Source: Verrucomicrobiota bacterium
GTDB lineage: Bacteria; Verrucomicrobiota; Verrucomicrobiia; Chthoniobacterales; UBA10450
Reading direction: 5' to 3'
DNA length: 41,348 nt
Assembly (NCBI GenBank): GCA_003218395.1
Contig: QHNJ01000030.1
Location: forward strand, 1 to 41,348
The translations under genes and the position numbers were made by a program. Each line of letters begins with the position of its first letter. Position 1 is the stretch's first letter. Shown in pieces: positions 13,548 to 40,288 of this stretch. The notes below the pieces were generated by a model, which was not told the DNA's origin, did not search any database, and saw only the letters and a list, made by a program, of their open reading frames with translations.

Positions 13548-16500
13548 ATGCCTGTACTCAGCAAAGAAGATAAGCTGCGACTCTTAACCACGATTCTGGA
13601 GAGCCGGCATGCAGACCTACGCGAGCAGAATTTGAATCGCCAGGGCAAAGGACACTTTCACGTTTCCGGAATGGGCCACGAAGCGCTAGCAGCGGTTTCA
13701 TTTCTCATGGAGCCGGATGATTATATGGTCCCATATTATCGCGATCGCGGGCTTATTCTCGGTCGCGGGATGACGACACGCCAACTTGGTTTCGAATATT
13801 TCGCCAAACGCAATACCGGAAGCGGCGGGCGGCAGATGCCATCGCATTACAGCCACGCGGATTTACATATTTGGAGTGTGCCGACGCCAACTGGTTCACA
13901 GCTTCTCCCTGCATGCGGGATTGCTTGGGGAATCCAGCTCGATGGCAAAAAAAATCTTGTTGTTACGACAGTCGGCGACGCCGCGACCCGACAAGGCGAT
14001 TTCTTCGAGGCTATTTCTTTCGCAAAAGAAAAAAAATTACCTGTTCTCTTCGTCGTTGAAGACAACGGCTATGGCATCAGCATGCCCACACGGGAGACGA
14101 ATCCGCTCGTGCTCGGCGTGCTTCAAGCCAGCGATTGGCAGCAAATCGATGGTCGCGATGTCCAGAAACTCTACGACGCAGCAAGCGTGGCGATGGAGGG
14201 AATCCGTGCTGGCAAAGGCCCGGCGTTTTTCTGGATTAAGATGGAGCGGCTTTCCAGTCACACCAGTTCGGACGACCAAAAACTTTATCGCAGCCCGGAA
14301 GAATTACGGGAACTCGAGAAATGCGATCCACTGAAATGCTGGAAGGATCAACTGATCGAGGAAGGTGTAATCACCGCCGAGGAATTTGTAAAGATCGATA
14401 CGGAAATAAAGGAACGTATCCGCCGGGAGTACAGTGATGCAGAGAAGGCCGAGGATCCGTCGCCTAATGAGCTTCTCGCGAATGTCGCGAAACCGCCGCA
14501 AAGGATTGATAAAGAAATCCTGCCGGCAGGGAAATACCGCATCGGTGACACCGTAAACAAAACATTGCGCGCTGGTCTCGAAGAAGATCCGCGACGCATC
14601 ATCTTCGGCGAAGACATTGAAGATCCAAAAGGCGGCGTGTTTCGCCTTACGCAAAAGCTTTCAACCGAGTTCCCGAAACAAGTCTTCAATTCGCCGCTCG
14701 CTGAGTCAACCATTCTCGGTGTTGCCTGCGGCCTAGCCTCCTACGGCAAACGCCCGGTCTTTGAGTTGCAATTTATCGATTTCATTTATCCAGGATTCAA
14801 CCAGCTCGTCACCAATATCTCGACCTTGCGCTGGCGATCCTTCGGCAATTGGAAATGCCCTGCCGTGATTTATGCGCCGTATGGTGCATATCTGCCCGGC
14901 GGCAGCTTGTGGCACAGTCAGGCGAACGAATCGGCGCTCGCACATTATCCCGGTCTGAGCATCGTCATTCCGAGCACGCCCAAAGACGCAGCTGGATTGC
15001 TTTGGACATCGATGCATGCCGAGGATCACGTGATCTTTCTGATTCCCAAACATCTGCTCTGGGCCGAACACGAATATGCAGAGCCAATTCGTGCTGTCCC
15101 GTTGGGTCAGGCTTGCAGGCGCACGAGGGGCTCTGACCTCACGCTGGTTGCATGGGGCAACACGATCGAGAAATCTCTCGAAGCAATCGCGAGAATCGAA
15201 CACGAAATGAGCGTGGAGTTGATCGATCTGCGTTCGATCATGCCCTGGGACCGCGACACGATTGAGGAATCAGTGCAAAAAACCCGGCGGCTCGTGGTTG
15301 TGCAGGAAGACACCGAAAATTGCAGCGTGGGTCAGATGATCATTTCGCATGTGACCGGCAAACCGGAACTTTGGAATGAGATGATCAGCCCGCCGATTCT
15401 CGTCAGCAAAGCCAACGTCATGATTGGCTACAATCCGATCTACGAATACTGTGCGCTGCCAGATGTGGAGCGTATCGTCGCCGCACTCAAACGCTCTGTT
15501 GCAAAAAAACAGGAACGCGCAGTTGCCGTAGAGGCGGCTGTCCCCAGCGGCAAAGAAGCCGAGATTGTGCGTGAGGCCACCCGCCCCTACACCGCAGGCA
15601 TGGGCAAGCAACGCGCGCAAAGCATCATCGTCCCGGTGATGGGCGAAGGAATTCGGAACGCCAAAATTGTTTCGCTTTTGAAAAAACAGGGGGACGCTAT
15701 CGCACTTGACGATCCACTTTGTGAAGTTGAGACCGACAAAGCGGTCTATCCAATAGAGTCGTCGTTCGCCGGCGTAATGGGCGAATGGAAAACAAAAGTA
15801 GGTGAAACGGTCGAGATCGGTCAGGAACTCGGTACTATTCTCACCGGTGAAGCGTCGCCCGCGGATCAATTTCAAGCTACAGCAAAGGCTTCAGGCGATG
15901 GTGTAGAGGCGGCTGTCCCCAGCCGCAAAGAGACGCGACCTGCGCCTGAGGACACGCGCTCCTACACCAGAATTGCACCTGCCCTTTCGCCCACGATCAC
16001 GCGCAAACTGAGCCACGTGATTCCTGCTAACTTGCAAATCGATGCGCGCTGGGATGCAATTCGCAAGGCGCGCGATGCAGCTAAAAAGAAAAATGGAAAG
16101 AACGCCCCCTCGCCTTCCGTGATGATCGCGTGGGCAGTCGTGCGCGCCATGGAAAAACACGCGCCGTTCCGTCGATTAGTTCTCGAAAACGATCAGATCA
16201 TCGAAAACGATAATTTCGATCTCGGCGTTGCGGTTGCCCTGGAAGGCGATCGCCTCGCCACTGCGGTCATTGTCGATGCAAACAAGAAAAGCTGGCCTGA
16301 ATTTGTAAAGATTTATAGCGCTACTGTCGATGCAACCCGTAGCGGCCGTGTCGATGCCATGAACGCACCGGTCGTGATCACAAGTCTCGGCGCGTTTGGC
16401 GTGAAAGCCGGCGCGCCGATTGTAGTGCCGCCATCGATCGGCACGCTTTTCGTCGGCACAGCCCATCGCGAATTGATTCCAAACGGGAAGAAAAACGAAA

Positions 16501-16655
16501 CCGCCGAAGTCGTCACGCTTTCACTTACGTTCGATCACCGCGTCGTTAACGGCGCCGGGGCGGCCAACTTCGTCCACGAAATCAAAGAGCAGATCGAGGA
16601 TTTCAAAGTTCCGTCTGGAGAGGCGAGCACAACTGCGTCCGCGGATCAGCGCTGA
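13548..16655 (+). CDS. 2-oxoacid dehydrogenase fusion: E1 alpha + E1 beta + lipoyl + E2 core in one chain
   Basis: A single uninterrupted 1035-residue frame. Residues about 1-310 are E1 alpha, with the thiamine-diphosphate motif GDAATRQGDFFEA ... NGYGIS at about 142-176. About 325-650 are E1 beta (NSPLAES, YGKRPVFELQFIDF). About 690-770 are a lipoyl domain with lipoyl lysine K731 in EVETDKAVYP. About 810-1020 are an E2 acyltransferase core. E1 alpha-beta fusions are known; adding the lipoyl and E2 parts makes nearly the whole complex one polypeptide. I see no E3-binding peripheral-subunit domain. The E2 motif usually written HRxxDG reads H997-R-V-V-N1001-G, an Asp-to-Asn change. Both interdomain linkers contain a 65-bp repeat in the same frame. 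The substrate (pyruvate or branched-chain 2-oxoacid) is undecided, and E3 is not in the window. Confidence 0.9.
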   Translation: MPVLSKEDKLRLLTTILESRHADLREQNLNRQGKGHFHVSGMGHEALAAVSFLMEPDDYMVPYYRDRGLILGRGMTTRQLGFEYFAKRNTGSGGRQMPSHYSHADLHIWSVPTPTGSQLLPACGIAWGIQLDGKKNLVVTTVGDAATRQGDFFEAISFAKEKKLPVLFVVEDNGYGISMPTRETNPLVLGVLQASDWQQIDGRDVQKLYDAASVAMEGIRAGKGPAFFWIKMERLSSHTSSDDQKLYRSPEELRELEKCDPLKCWKDQLIEEGVITAEEFVKIDTEIKERIRREYSDAEKAEDPSPNELLANVAKPPQRIDKEILPAGKYRIGDTVNKTLRAGLEEDPRRIIFGEDIEDPKGGVFRLTQKLSTEFPKQVFNSPLAESTILGVACGLASYGKRPVFELQFIDFIYPGFNQLVTNISTLRWRSFGNWKCPAVIYAPYGAYLPGGSLWHSQANESALAHYPGLSIVIPSTPKDAAGLLWTSMHAEDHVIFLIPKHLLWAEHEYAEPIRAVPLGQACRRTRGSDLTLVAWGNTIEKSLEAIARIEHEMSVELIDLRSIMPWDRDTIEESVQKTRRLVVVQEDTENCSVGQMIISHVTGKPELWNEMISPPILVSKANVMIGYNPIYEYCALPDVERIVAALKRSVAKKQERAVAVEAAVPSGKEAEIVREATRPYTAGMGKQRAQSIIVPVMGEGIRNAKIVSLLKKQGDAIALDDPLCEVETDKAVYPIESSFAGVMGEWKTKVGETVEIGQELGTILTGEASPADQFQATAKASGDGVEAAVPSRKETRPAPEDTRSYTRIAPALSPTITRKLSHVIPANLQIDARWDAIRKARDAAKKKNGKNAPSPSVMIAWAVVRAMEKHAPFRRLVLENDQIIENDNFDLGVAVALEGDRLATAVIVDANKKSWPEFVKIYSATVDATRSGRVDAMNAPVVITSLGAFGVKAGAPIVVPPSIGTLFVGTAHRELIPNGKKNETAEVVTLSLTFDHRVVNGAGAANFVHEIKEQIEDFKVPSGEASTTASADQR
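15527..15591 (+). repeat. In-frame 65-bp palindromic repeat, copy 1 (E1 beta-lipoyl linker)
   Basis: Starts CGTAGAGGCGGCTGTCCCCA and ends in CCCGCCCCTACA, giving imperfect inverted ends. It aligns without gaps to copy 2 at 15902: 28 of the first 30 bases agree, the centre diverges, and the ends agree again. It encodes about residues 660-682 (VEAAVPSGKEAEIVREATRP), exactly between the E1 beta and lipoyl domains. Confidence 0.85.
15902..15966 (+). repeat. In-frame 65-bp palindromic repeat, copy 2 (lipoyl-E2 linker)
   Basis: Same length and same reading frame as copy 1. It starts TGTAGAGGCGGCTGTCCCCA and ends CGCGCTCCTACA, so the ends form TGTAG/CTACA. It encodes about residues 785-807 (VEAAVPSRKETRPAPEDTRS) between the lipoyl domain and the E2 core, where an E3-binding domain would normally sit. 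Confidence 0.85.
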
Positions 16656-25707: not shown

Positions 25708-25735
25708 GTTGATGGTTGATAGTTAATGGTTGATG
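25708..25735 (+). repeat. Heptamer array in front of batD
   Basis: Four consecutive 7-mers, GTTGATG, GTTGATA, GTTAATG and GTTGATG, fill most of the 48-bp gap between the batB/C stop and batD. The array ends at the GGAG ribosome binding site of batD, so it may have moved in without breaking expression. Confidence 0.65.
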
Positions 25736-25744
25736 GAGATGTCG

Positions 25745-27595
25745 ATGCACCGATCACGGATTCCCATGGCGGTTTTGCTTGGCGCGTTGATCGCGTTTGC
25801 AGAAGACAATCGAGCGTTTGCTGAACCGCCGAGCGTGACGGCAGTCTTGAGTAACTCGGAGGCCGTTGTCGGCCAAATGGTCGAGTTGCAAATCAAGGTA
25901 ACAGGGGCGGGAAATGCGCAACCACCGGAGCACATCTCGATCGATGGTCTGGAGATTCACGCGACCGGAACATCGCGCCAATTCGAAATGCGCAATTTCA
26001 CGACCACCTCGAGCGTGACTTATAATTACGCAATCCTGCCGCTCAAAGCGGGCCAGTTTGCGATTCCGTCCCAGACAATCCTCGTCGGCGGCAAATCGCT
26101 GCGGACACCGGAATTGACATTGAACGTTGCCGATTCACCTGGTCGTTCATCTGCCTCTCGCCCGGCTCAGAATGCGCGACCGGGTAATGCGAGCAAACTC
26201 GTTTTTGCCGAATTGATCGTCCCGAAGAAAACTGCCTTTGTCGGCGAGATCGTCCCTGTTCAGATTCGGCTCGGATTTGATCCGCGCACCCATCCAAGGC
26301 TGATCGACCTTCCCGAAATTACCGGACAAGGATTTACTGCGCACAAGTTGCAGCAATCCGGAGAGAATCGGGAGACGATTAGCGGCAGAACTTACGATGT
26401 TGTGACATTTAAGACTGCGATCGCTGCGGCCCGCGCGGGAAATTTTGAAATCGGACCGGTTAAGGCAAAGGCGCAGGTGTTGACCCCGCGAAGGCCAAGT
26501 TCGCCGCGCTCGCGTTCGCCATTCGACTTGTTTAATCTGGACGATCCGTTCTCCGATCCTTTTTTCTCCGATCCATTTGGCGAAGTTGGCGAGCGGCGCG
26601 AGATAGAAATCAACAGCGAACCTGTAGCTTTCGACGTAAAACCGTTGCCGCAAAACGCGCCGGCGAATTTTTCAGGGGCGATCGGGAATTTCACAATGAC
26701 AACGGATGCGAAGCCCAAGAGTGTTCAAGTGGGGGATCCAATTACGGTTACAACGACGATCTCCGGACGCGGCAATTTCGATCGAGTCAATGCGCCCGGG
26801 ATTGAGGACGAGCACGGCTGGCACAAATATCCGCCATCTTCCAAGTTCAAGCAGGACGATGATGTCGGCATAAGCGGCACGAGAACTTTCGAAACAGTGC
26901 TTTCACCCAACGAAAAGAAGCAAAGCATGCCAGTGATGGCATTTTCCTATTTCGATCCAGTGAAGGAGCAATATGTGACCCTGCGTAGCGATCCGATTGC
27001 GATCAATGTGCAAGGTGGCGCACTGGCAGATGCAGGTGCGGCCGTAGTCCCGCCGGGGTCACCGCCCCCGGCTGCAGTTGCTGCTCCGACGCCGGTCCAG
27101 AAGCCGCAGGATATTTTGTATCAACTGACGGAACGGTCCACCGTAGCACAATCGTTCGGGCCACTTTACGCTCGCCGGCTTTTTTGGACGGTCCAGTTGG
27201 TTCCATTGCTTGCGTTGATTGGATTTGCCGGATGGAAAATTCGGCAAGCCAGGATCAATAATCGCGAGGCACGACGCATCGCTGCGCTGCAGCATGAAGC
27301 TGTCGAACTAATGCGCAAATTGCATCGTAGCGACGCGTCGCCGCGAGAGTATTATGCAGAGGCTTCCAGAGTCGTTCGGGTAAAAGCTGCCCTAGCGCGC
27401 AATGTGGATCCAAACACGGTCGATCTGGAAACGGCGGCCGATACATTTGGACTAAACGGCGATTCGCGTGAGCGGTTGCGCCGGTTGTTCGAACAAAGCG
27501 ACGAGTTGCAATACAGCGGAACCCACAACGGATCGGAAAAGATTTCCCCGGAGAGTCGCCGCGACGTGCTGGAATTGATTGAACATTTGAAATGA
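25745..27595 (+). CDS. batD: BatD-type oxygen-tolerance protein
   Basis: A 616-residue envelope protein: signal peptide (about 3-26, cleavage near RAFA), two to three immunoglobulin-like beta domains typical of BatD (SVTAVLSNSEAVVGQMVELQIKV at the first; FVGEIVPVQIRL; VQVGDPITVTTTISGRGNFD), a transmembrane helix at about 484-504 and a helical cytoplasmic C-terminus. Of several in-frame starts (TTG 25730, ATG 25733, 25739, 25745), the ATG at 25745 has GGAG at 25735-25738 and gives the best signal peptide. It probably exposes its beta domains in the periplasm next to BatA/BatB. It shares ATGA with batE. Confidence 0.87.
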   Translation: MHRSRIPMAVLLGALIAFAEDNRAFAEPPSVTAVLSNSEAVVGQMVELQIKVTGAGNAQPPEHISIDGLEIHATGTSRQFEMRNFTTTSSVTYNYAILPLKAGQFAIPSQTILVGGKSLRTPELTLNVADSPGRSSASRPAQNARPGNASKLVFAELIVPKKTAFVGEIVPVQIRLGFDPRTHPRLIDLPEITGQGFTAHKLQQSGENRETISGRTYDVVTFKTAIAAARAGNFEIGPVKAKAQVLTPRRPSSPRSRSPFDLFNLDDPFSDPFFSDPFGEVGERREIEINSEPVAFDVKPLPQNAPANFSGAIGNFTMTTDAKPKSVQVGDPITVTTTISGRGNFDRVNAPGIEDEHGWHKYPPSSKFKQDDDVGISGTRTFETVLSPNEKKQSMPVMAFSYFDPVKEQYVTLRSDPIAINVQGGALADAGAAVVPPGSPPPAAVAAPTPVQKPQDILYQLTERSTVAQSFGPLYARRLFWTVQLVPLLALIGFAGWKIRQARINNREARRIAALQHEAVELMRKLHRSDASPREYYAEASRVVRVKAALARNVDPNTVDLETAADTFGLNGDSRERLRRLFEQSDELQYSGTHNGSEKISPESRRDVLELIEHLK

Positions 27596-37452: not shown

Positions 37453-38271
37453 ATGGACGAAAGGCCGATCGGTGTTTTTGATTCCGGAACTGGCGGCCTG
37501 ACTGTTGTCAAGGCGCTGCGTGACCTGTTGCCTGACGAAAAGATTTTTTACCTTGGTGACACCGCGCGCGTCCCATACGGCGGAAAAAGTGCCAGTACCG
37601 TTGAGCGCTACAGCCTCGAGATTGCCGACATACTCATTGAGGAAAACGCAAAAATCGTTGTGGTGGCGTGCAACACCGCTTCTTCTCTGGCCTTACCGAA
37701 ACTGGAGAAACATCTTCCCGTGGCGGTCATTGGCGTCATTCGGCCCGGGGCGCGTGCGGCAGTCGCGGCCACACGCAACGACCACATCGGAGTGATCGGA
37801 ACGCGCGCAACGATCAAAAGCGGCGCTTACGAACGCGAATTGCGTGCACTGAATCCTGACATTCGGATTTCGGTGCGCGCTTGCCCATTGCTCGTTCCGT
37901 TAATTGAGGAGGCGTGGCTGAATGATGAGCTCACGGATCGCGTCATCGGCCGTTACCTTGAACCGCTCGTGCGGGAAGGGATCGACACGCTCGTGCTTGG
38001 CTGCACGCATTATCCATTACTTGTCGACGCACTTTCTCGCGCGCTCGGCGAGAGGGTGAAACTCGTAGATTCGGCTCACAACTGTGCGACCGCGGTACGG
38101 GAACTTTTGGATCGGCAAGAATTTCGCGCGCCATCGGGAACTCTGGGTGGTTTGGAAATCGCGTTAACCGATACCCCGGACAACTTTCTGCGCGTGGCCC
38201 GGGAGGCGTTGCAACTGGAGATCGGCGAAATCCAATTACGCGAAGTCTTACACGGCGCGGCCACTCTGTAG
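37453..38271 (+). CDS. murI: Glutamate racemase
   Basis: Interconverts L- and D-glutamate for peptidoglycan. The 272-residue protein is complete: N-terminal IGVFDSGTGGLTVVKAL, DTARVPYGGKS, the catalytic cysteines C73 (VACNTASS) and C184 (LGCTHYPLL), all in the usual places. The TAG stop (38269-38271) is part of the TGTAG end of a dispersed element that fills the spacer to the convergent YjbR-like gene. Confidence 0.96.
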   Translation: MDERPIGVFDSGTGGLTVVKALRDLLPDEKIFYLGDTARVPYGGKSASTVERYSLEIADILIEENAKIVVVACNTASSLALPKLEKHLPVAVIGVIRPGARAAVAATRNDHIGVIGTRATIKSGAYERELRALNPDIRISVRACPLLVPLIEEAWLNDELTDRVIGRYLEPLVREGIDTLVLGCTHYPLLVDALSRALGERVKLVDSAHNCATAVRELLDRQEFRAPSGTLGGLEIALTDTPDNFLRVAREALQLEIGEIQLREVLHGAATL

Positions 38272-38362
38272 GGACGGCCTGCGACCGCCGAAACGCACGC
38301 TGTTGAATTTCGAAATGCAAACTTGCGTTGCTTTCGTTTTCGGCTCATAGAGCGCCGCTACA
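38267..38362. repeat. TGTAG...CTACA element between murI and the YjbR-like gene
   Basis: A 96-bp stretch starting TGTAGGGACGGC at 38267 and ending GAGCGCCGCTACA at 38362. The two ends are inverted (TGTAG/CTACA), like the 65-bp repeats in the dehydrogenase fusion. The stop codons of both convergent genes (TAG 38269-38271 and TAG 38360-38358 on the minus strand) lie inside the terminal pentamers. Confidence 0.55.
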
Positions 38363-40140: not shown

Positions 40141-40288
40141 GAGCCACAGATTTACACAGATTACACGGATTGCCTGCAACGAAATCTGTAGCCCCGAAAG
40201 CATTCGGGGTGCCGGCCGCATTTCCTAAACTCCGCAGGCGGCACGCCTGCCTCTAGAGCATCTGCGTCATCCGCGTGATCTGCGGTTA
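40141..40288. repeat. Nested repeat cluster between glyS and the OsmC gene
   Basis: Left part (about 40145-40171): period-9 units CACAGATTA-like on the plus strand. Centre (40187-40256): an element starting TGTAG, with a hairpin CCCCGAA/TTCGGGG, and ending GCAGGCGGCACGCCTGCCTC. Right part (40258-40288): three 9-mers of CGCRGATnn type on the minus strand, beginning with the TAA stop of the OsmC gene at 40286-40288. Inverted 9-mer arrays thus bracket a TGTAG element. Confidence 0.65.

Follow-up and report, generated by a model that had tools for sequence, protein, structure and literature searches.

Why should the same palindromic repeat lie twice, in one and the same reading frame, in both interdomain linkers of a fused 2-oxoacid dehydrogenase, and did it take any part in making that fusion? 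The stretch of DNA that raises this question (the window; 41,348 nt) is contig C164 of a draft genome of 2.95 Mb, which comprises 335 contigs and is 88% complete and 2% contaminated. The named relatives of the dehydrogenase gene belong to "Candidatus Udaeobacter" and to other metagenome-assembled genomes of Chthoniobacterales/Spartobacteria, which makes a soil verrucomicrobium the most likely source. We consider it very probable that inverted REP doublets (REPINs), non-autonomous elements presumably moved by a REP-associated tyrosine transposase (RAYT), landed repeatedly in the disordered linkers of an already fused enzyme, where those compatible with the reading frame were tolerated and were subsequently replaced or buried by new ones, with the length of the linker held near 55 residues.

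Two REP doublets within a dehydrogenase gene

The host gene (positions 13548 to 16655, forward strand) encodes a 1035-aa fusion of E1alpha, E1beta, a lipoyl domain and an E2 acyltransferase core, in that order, as revealed by translation and by Pfam and NCBIfam matches. Pfam places E1 at residues 19 to 306, the transketolase C domain at 520 to 610, the lipoyl domain at 693 to 764 and the E2 core at 804 to 1020, with the E1beta part covering about residues 334 to 650; an E3-binding domain (PSBD; E3/E1-binding) was detected by neither Pfam nor NCBIfam. This single-chain architecture is common to Chthoniobacterales and Opitutae-type genomes. In an AlphaFold2 model built with 27 homologues, the long interdomain stretches of very low confidence are the two linkers (pLDDT below 50 at residues 655 to 688 and 768 to 803), and some low-confidence stretches also occur within E1beta. 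On the basis of this model, both fusion linkers are predicted to be disordered.

The first copy of the repeat, REPIN 1 (15527 to 15591, forward strand; residues ~660 to 682), lies in the E1beta-lipoyl linker, and the second, REPIN 2 (15902 to 15966, forward strand; residues ~785 to 807), lies in the lipoyl-E2 linker. Alignment, folding and translation confirmed both positions, and with them the initial annotation, which had described a palindromic 65-bp repeat present twice in the same frame. Its assignment of the copies to the two domain joints agreed with Pfam as well, the peptide of the second copy just touching the start of the E2 core match at residue 804. The copies, 65 bp each, align without gaps and are identical at 50 of 65 positions, reaching 97% identity over the first 29 nt, and the 21-mer GTAGAGGCGGCTGTCCCCAGC, of which the window has two copies, was never observed in 100 dinucleotide shuffles. 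Both copies are palindromic, with folding z-scores of -2.1 to -4.8 across the two strands, and the minimum-energy fold of each doublet is a long hairpin on both strands. Within the 1035-aa ORF, both are read in the frame GTA GAG GCG GCT GTC CCC AGC.

Each copy consists of two REPs in inverted order, a REP here being a GTAG foot followed by a short hairpin (GTAG-AG-GCGGCTG-TCCC-CAGCCGC). The foot is present on all four arms, three of which pass the 7-bp stem test. The left REP of REPIN 1 (15528 to 15551, forward strand) has the foot and a hairpin with one stem mismatch; the right, inverted REP (15567 to 15590, reverse strand) is degenerate, with four mismatches to the arm of the repeat class that we call A, and is the one arm that fails the strict hairpin test. 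In REPIN 2, the left REP (15903 to 15926, forward strand; GTAGAGGCGGCTGTCCCCAGCCGC) has a perfect 7-bp stem and is followed by the right, inverted REP (15942 to 15965, reverse strand; GTAGGAGCGCGTGTCCTCAGGCGC). Both segments are inverted REP doublets of class A and belong to the GTAG superfamily, in which the tetranucleotide stands at one end, next to a stem of 5 to 13 bp with a short loop. Bertels and Rainey (2011, PMC3116915) gave such doublets the name REPINs, and the superfamily of GTAG REPs has been described before (Di Nocera 2013, PMC3733652).

Two spacer sites of the window had been named as carrying the same ends. One of them, at 40187, indeed holds a REP hairpin (40188 to 40209), which is part of an intergenic composite REPIN (40187 to 40256, forward strand) composed of a left REP (GTAGCCCCGAA..) and a class B-like right arm ending in CTAGA. 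The other, 38267 to 38362, failed the hairpin test and was rejected as a further repeat site. A third in-frame REP, of class CD, had been overlooked; it lies at 27044 to 27076 (forward strand) in a Pro/Ala-rich stretch of a BatD-like ORF (25730 to 27595).

Dispersal, reading frame and turnover of the repeats

Copies of the repeat are present elsewhere in the same genome, as expected of the dispersed element that had been supposed. The class A arm was found at 12 places with at most 3 mismatches (reversed control, 0), a loose doublet pattern gave 26 matches compared with 4 for the reversed control, and a second class, CD, gave 16 arm matches. About one-quarter of 41 elements sampled from this genome lie in frame within genes. 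The genome also contains Y1-transposase genes, one of which (L020, contig C3) encodes a RAYT (NF047646; 84.9 bits, with an NCBIfam cut-off of 80), while a second scored 74 bits for the RAYT family (cut-off, 80). The RAYT gene of L020 is flanked on both sides by class A-type REPINs, an arrangement called a REPtron, and the downstream REPIN, 65 bp long, shares 53 aligned identities with the second window copy, the maximum in 500 shuffles being 44. Because of this RAYT association, it is unlikely that the element is a MITE of a DDE transposon.

The fusion was present in 70 of the 83 genomes of the family, and we read its linkers at 30 loci of the genus and 26 loci of other genera. The strict REP-hairpin test was passed in linker 1 at 22 and in linker 2 at 25 of the 30 genus loci (shuffled mean, ~2; maximum, 5) and at 20 and 12, respectively, of the 26 others. 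At least six repeat classes occur in the linkers, namely A (TCCY loop), B (TGTC-type loop), CD (GTAGCCG...CGG), E, F and G, the last of which has a GGAG foot and was found in genus g6; a class was assigned at 6 mismatches or fewer, and shuffled linkers gave a best match of 6 in 5 of 560 cases and of more in the others. Much of both linkers consists, as first proposed, of a dispersed palindromic element kept in frame. On a gene tree of 56 species computed without the linker columns, the minimum number of class changes is 16 for linker 1 and 21 for linker 2; both counts are approximate given low-support branches and labels permitting up to 6 mismatches. Class changes occur between well-supported neighbours, e.g., L045/L047 (CD, B) and L024/L046/L050 (A, A).

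Several linkers retain traces of former occupants. In linker 1 of L024, L046 and L050, half a CD REP (GTAGCCGCGGGCGCTG in L024) runs directly into a class A REPIN; in linker 2 of L026 and L024, an older REP immediately precedes a class A REPIN; and L063 and L070 combine class G with a remnant CD arm. A 30-bp palindromic insert encoding the peptide FAEATADK or FTEATADK is nested in a class CD element in linker 1 of L043, linker 2 of L044 and linker 1 of L128. Judged from their sequences, these scars look like successive insertions accompanied by partial loss of earlier content. We also noted that the 30-bp insert is a further coding-compatible repeat and, separately, that linker 1 of L127, 67 codons long, contains a tandem pair of class A left REPs.

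All 75 classified GTAG linker elements start in codon phase 0 (GTA G..), and the intergenic REPINs of the window's own genome are spread evenly over the three phases (7/7/6). From foot to foot, elements of classes A and B measure 0 mod 3, a single exception aside, and those of CD measure 2 mod 3. One phase is excluded since GTAG contains TAG. An open frame cannot by itself account for the choice of GTA, because the TGT-AG frame is open as often as the GTA frame in intergenic copies (18 of 20 and 15 of 20, respectively). The uniform phase would thus reflect either selection against the TGT-AG phase or a retained left foot, inherited or recombined in place.

Retention of the foot would fit an alternative in which REPINs recombine at their conserved feet, through homology or microhomology (gene conversion), and the classes turn over in this way rather than by new RAYT-driven insertion. 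Exchange between conserved feet is expected to leave the start phase uniform and the left foot fixed, and 24 of the 28 classified genus copies in linker 1 indeed share one codon position for this foot (nt 45, with 42 or 48), whatever their class. However, the junctions 3' of CTAC in linker 2 vary by class, lying about 36, 33 and 34 nt from the same anchor, and the persistence of old REP halves beside new REPINs in L024, L026 and L046 has the look of insertion plus partial loss. We regard recombination as a genuine possibility for the turnover, albeit not the one that we favor.

Under the preferred explanation by repeated insertion, RAYT would move REP-bounded single-stranded units (for the biochemistry of TnpA_REP, see PMC8266576), and REPINs and their relatives would keep landing in the two disordered linkers of the prefused enzyme. 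In the GTA-G frame, this GC-rich element encodes an Ala/Val/Pro-rich and cysteine-free peptide. Insertions in this frame would be tolerated because the encoded peptide resembles ordinary E2 linkers, and other insertions would be removed. Coding insertions would generally survive where a linker-like peptide is tolerated and the frame is kept, which would make fusion linkers ideal sites. Later REPINs presumably insert within or next to older ones, or are swapped by recombination, as the exact step of replacement, while selection would keep the linker near its length and the exchange would probably be neutral for enzyme function.

Constraint on the linkers and age of the fusion

The repeats could also be kept for a function of their own, either through an effect of their hairpins on the mRNA (pausing of ribosomes, or processing of the transcript, at domain boundaries) or because their peptide is needed. 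The hairpins do lie at domain boundaries of a large multidomain protein, and most members of the genus carry REP hairpins in their linkers. Several observations nevertheless argue against such a function. Hairpin arms have in many cases decayed in place (the right arm in linker 1 of L021, as well as L027, L031 and L044), linkers are REP-free in sister genera (L057, L064, L071 and L074 in the strict hairpin test) and in Opitutae-type homologues, and REPs also occur in unrelated genes. Moreover, of the eight close pairs compared, most had a clearly higher dN/dS in the linkers than in the domains, the exceptions being L031/L032 and L025/L033, whose linkers had low dN/dS and were about as constrained as the rest of the protein. 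On this sequence evidence, neither peptide nor hairpin looks strongly conserved, with the composition staying linker-like, and we consider a retained function very improbable.

The exact location of the REPINs at the domain joints of the genus might suggest that a dispersed element gave rise to the gene fusion or made it possible. This is contradicted by homologues at about 52 to 64% identity, mostly Opitutae-type, which are fused with ordinary linkers. All 23 Opitutae-type homologues in this identity range (most of the analyzed loci numbered L180 and above; L204 excluded) share the fused architecture and have ordinary Ala/Pro-rich linkers in which GTAG REPs are absent. REPs were likewise absent from four loci of another family of the order (L117 to L120, with L120 lying on the same contig as L207). 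Linkers with and without REPs are of similar length, with medians of about 54 to 58 codons, near 55 residues. Since the Opitutae-type homologues carry the same fusion with REP-free linkers of similar length, the repeats came later, and the fusion is, as far as these sequences tell, older than they are. Most likely, the linkers existed before the repeats, which entered them and displaced their content instead of enlarging it. The proposal of the initial annotation that the repeat helped to build or tolerate the fusion must accordingly be divided: a part in building it is very hard to sustain, and tolerance of the repeat by the fused protein is borne out by the raised linker dN/dS and by the predicted disorder.

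Hardly any weight can be given to convergence of Ala/Pro-rich linker peptides with no element at the DNA level: although the composition of linkers with REPs (17.5% Ala, no Cys) and REP-free linkers (22.1% Ala) is alike, closely similar 60- to 65-mers with GTAG/CTAC feet and hairpins lie in intergenic DNA and around the RAYT gene, which refutes it, and the linker peptides of the distant homologues are unrelated.

Repeats and transposase domains in other proteins, and known systems

In-frame REPs are not confined to the dehydrogenase. At least nine of the sampled genes of the window's own genome contain them, in-gene status being defined by a codon-usage score trained on window genes and by family matches, not by annotation. 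The cases supported by family matches are tRNA-guanine transglycosylase (Tgt), RNA uracil methyltransferase, a UvrD-type helicase, PutA, SucB, YchF, alanyl-tRNA synthetase, a nucleoside-recognition membrane protein and a BatD-like protein. The REP lies between the two enzyme domains in PutA and between the lipoyl and E3-binding domains in SucB (L109, 887 to 2155), and in Tgt and YchF it forms an additional segment compared with solved structures. Another locus, L114, is by eye presumably IspG. L103 and L111 were inspected and left out of the in-gene count. L081, in-gene by score, was likewise left out; its REPIN lies just before a prepilin-like N terminus, and the true start may lie downstream of the repeat.

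A search for RAYTs in the genus revealed entire RAYT domains within long host ORFs. In RecG (L245 to L258 and L261 in the genus; L018, 118 to 2895, on contig C334 of the window's own bin), at least 13 genomes have a stretch of about 250 to 330 residues with a RAYT domain, read without interruption in a single open frame. The empty site, read in nine loci, is a short segment of 41 to 55 residues, and in L265 the insert has REP ends and no transposase. In all eight inspected RecG loci containing a RAYT or only a REPIN, the insert has GTAG or GGAG hairpins at one end or both; the two inspected empty loci have none. Where it could be computed, dN/dS of the RecG-embedded RAYT was 0.06 to 0.14, and the domain is therefore under selection. 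The C334 copy may be a contaminant, because its protein is 100% identical to that of another genome (G017, contig C63) and a second RecG in the own bin (contig C129) is empty.

In CarB, a RAYT-type domain lies in frame in at least eight genomes of the genus, giving ORFs of 1326 to 1376 aa compared with 1071 to 1122 aa in many others without it (loci L240, 1935 to 6020, reverse strand, and L275 to L300), where presence and absence rest on match coordinates. Two single cases, recognized from sequence, are an in-frame RAYT domain in a MetH-like ORF of 1619 aa (L241, 1037 to 5893, reverse strand) and another in an AlaRS-like ORF of 1181 aa (L242, 1743 to 5285, forward strand). We tentatively suggest, with less than even confidence, that Udaeobacter-type bacteria harbor ORF-preserving mobile elements, i.e., REPINs and RAYT-encoding REPtrons that lie in frame in housekeeping proteins (RecG, CarB, MetH, AlaRS and the E1-E2 linkers). 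The transposase would then be made as an inserted domain of a host enzyme, and indispensable genes would serve as long-term refuges against loss by simple disruption.

In the soil bacteria "Candidatus Udaeobacter" and their relatives, mobile DNA can thus be read as a working protein linker, repeatedly and at the same two places, in a natural case with many replicates, REP-free controls and visible scars. This makes testable the invasion of coding DNA by selfish repeats, the evolution of linkers whose length is held while their sequence is fairly free, and the role of coding sites as refuges. A single genus contains RecG and CarB sites with and without an in-frame RAYT domain, which gives experiments direct access to the function of RAYT. 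Gene callers and alignments for these bacteria have to reckon with REPs inside genes as well as outside them.

The elements are not of a new kind: a paper of 2013 had already described intragenic GTAG REPs kept in frame, most abundantly in the verrucomicrobium Opitutus terrae (PMC3733652). In O. terrae and others, in-frame REP dimers, sometimes two per gene (uvrA), encode 20 to 30 aa; different REPs lie at about the same recB site in two Xanthomonas species; and the authors already proposed insertion in flexible linkers (PMC3733652). In the main text of that paper, we found no phylogeny of turnover within one gene and no mention of a dehydrogenase. A limited search of open papers yielded nothing on Udaeobacter REPs and, on tyrosine transposases with RecG, nothing beyond a single mention of RecG. 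New, in that we did not find them described, are the recurrent turnover of REPIN classes at the same site in one gene across genus and family and the complete in-frame REPtrons in housekeeping genes.

The parallel drawn earlier with Rickettsia palindromic elements holds as a functional analogy, both being palindromic repeats kept in frame within proteins. In kinship it does not: the intragenic repeats RPE-4 and RPE-6 of R. conorii have a CGTC foot (PMC3733652), which the present elements lack, whereas these have GTAG feet and an associated RAYT and belong to the GTAG REP/REPIN superfamily. They resemble the intragenic GTAG REPs of O. terrae in being verrucomicrobial REP dimers in frame inside genes, and REPIN/GTAG REP and RAYT systems in general in their GTAG foot, 7- to 9-bp hairpin, inverted doublet of about 60 to 77 bp with a variable middle, several classes per genome and RAYT gene flanked by the same class. 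Unlike those systems, however, they lie in frame between the domains of a core enzyme, in its linkers, in the majority of the species of a genus, and other classes have repeatedly replaced them at the same site.
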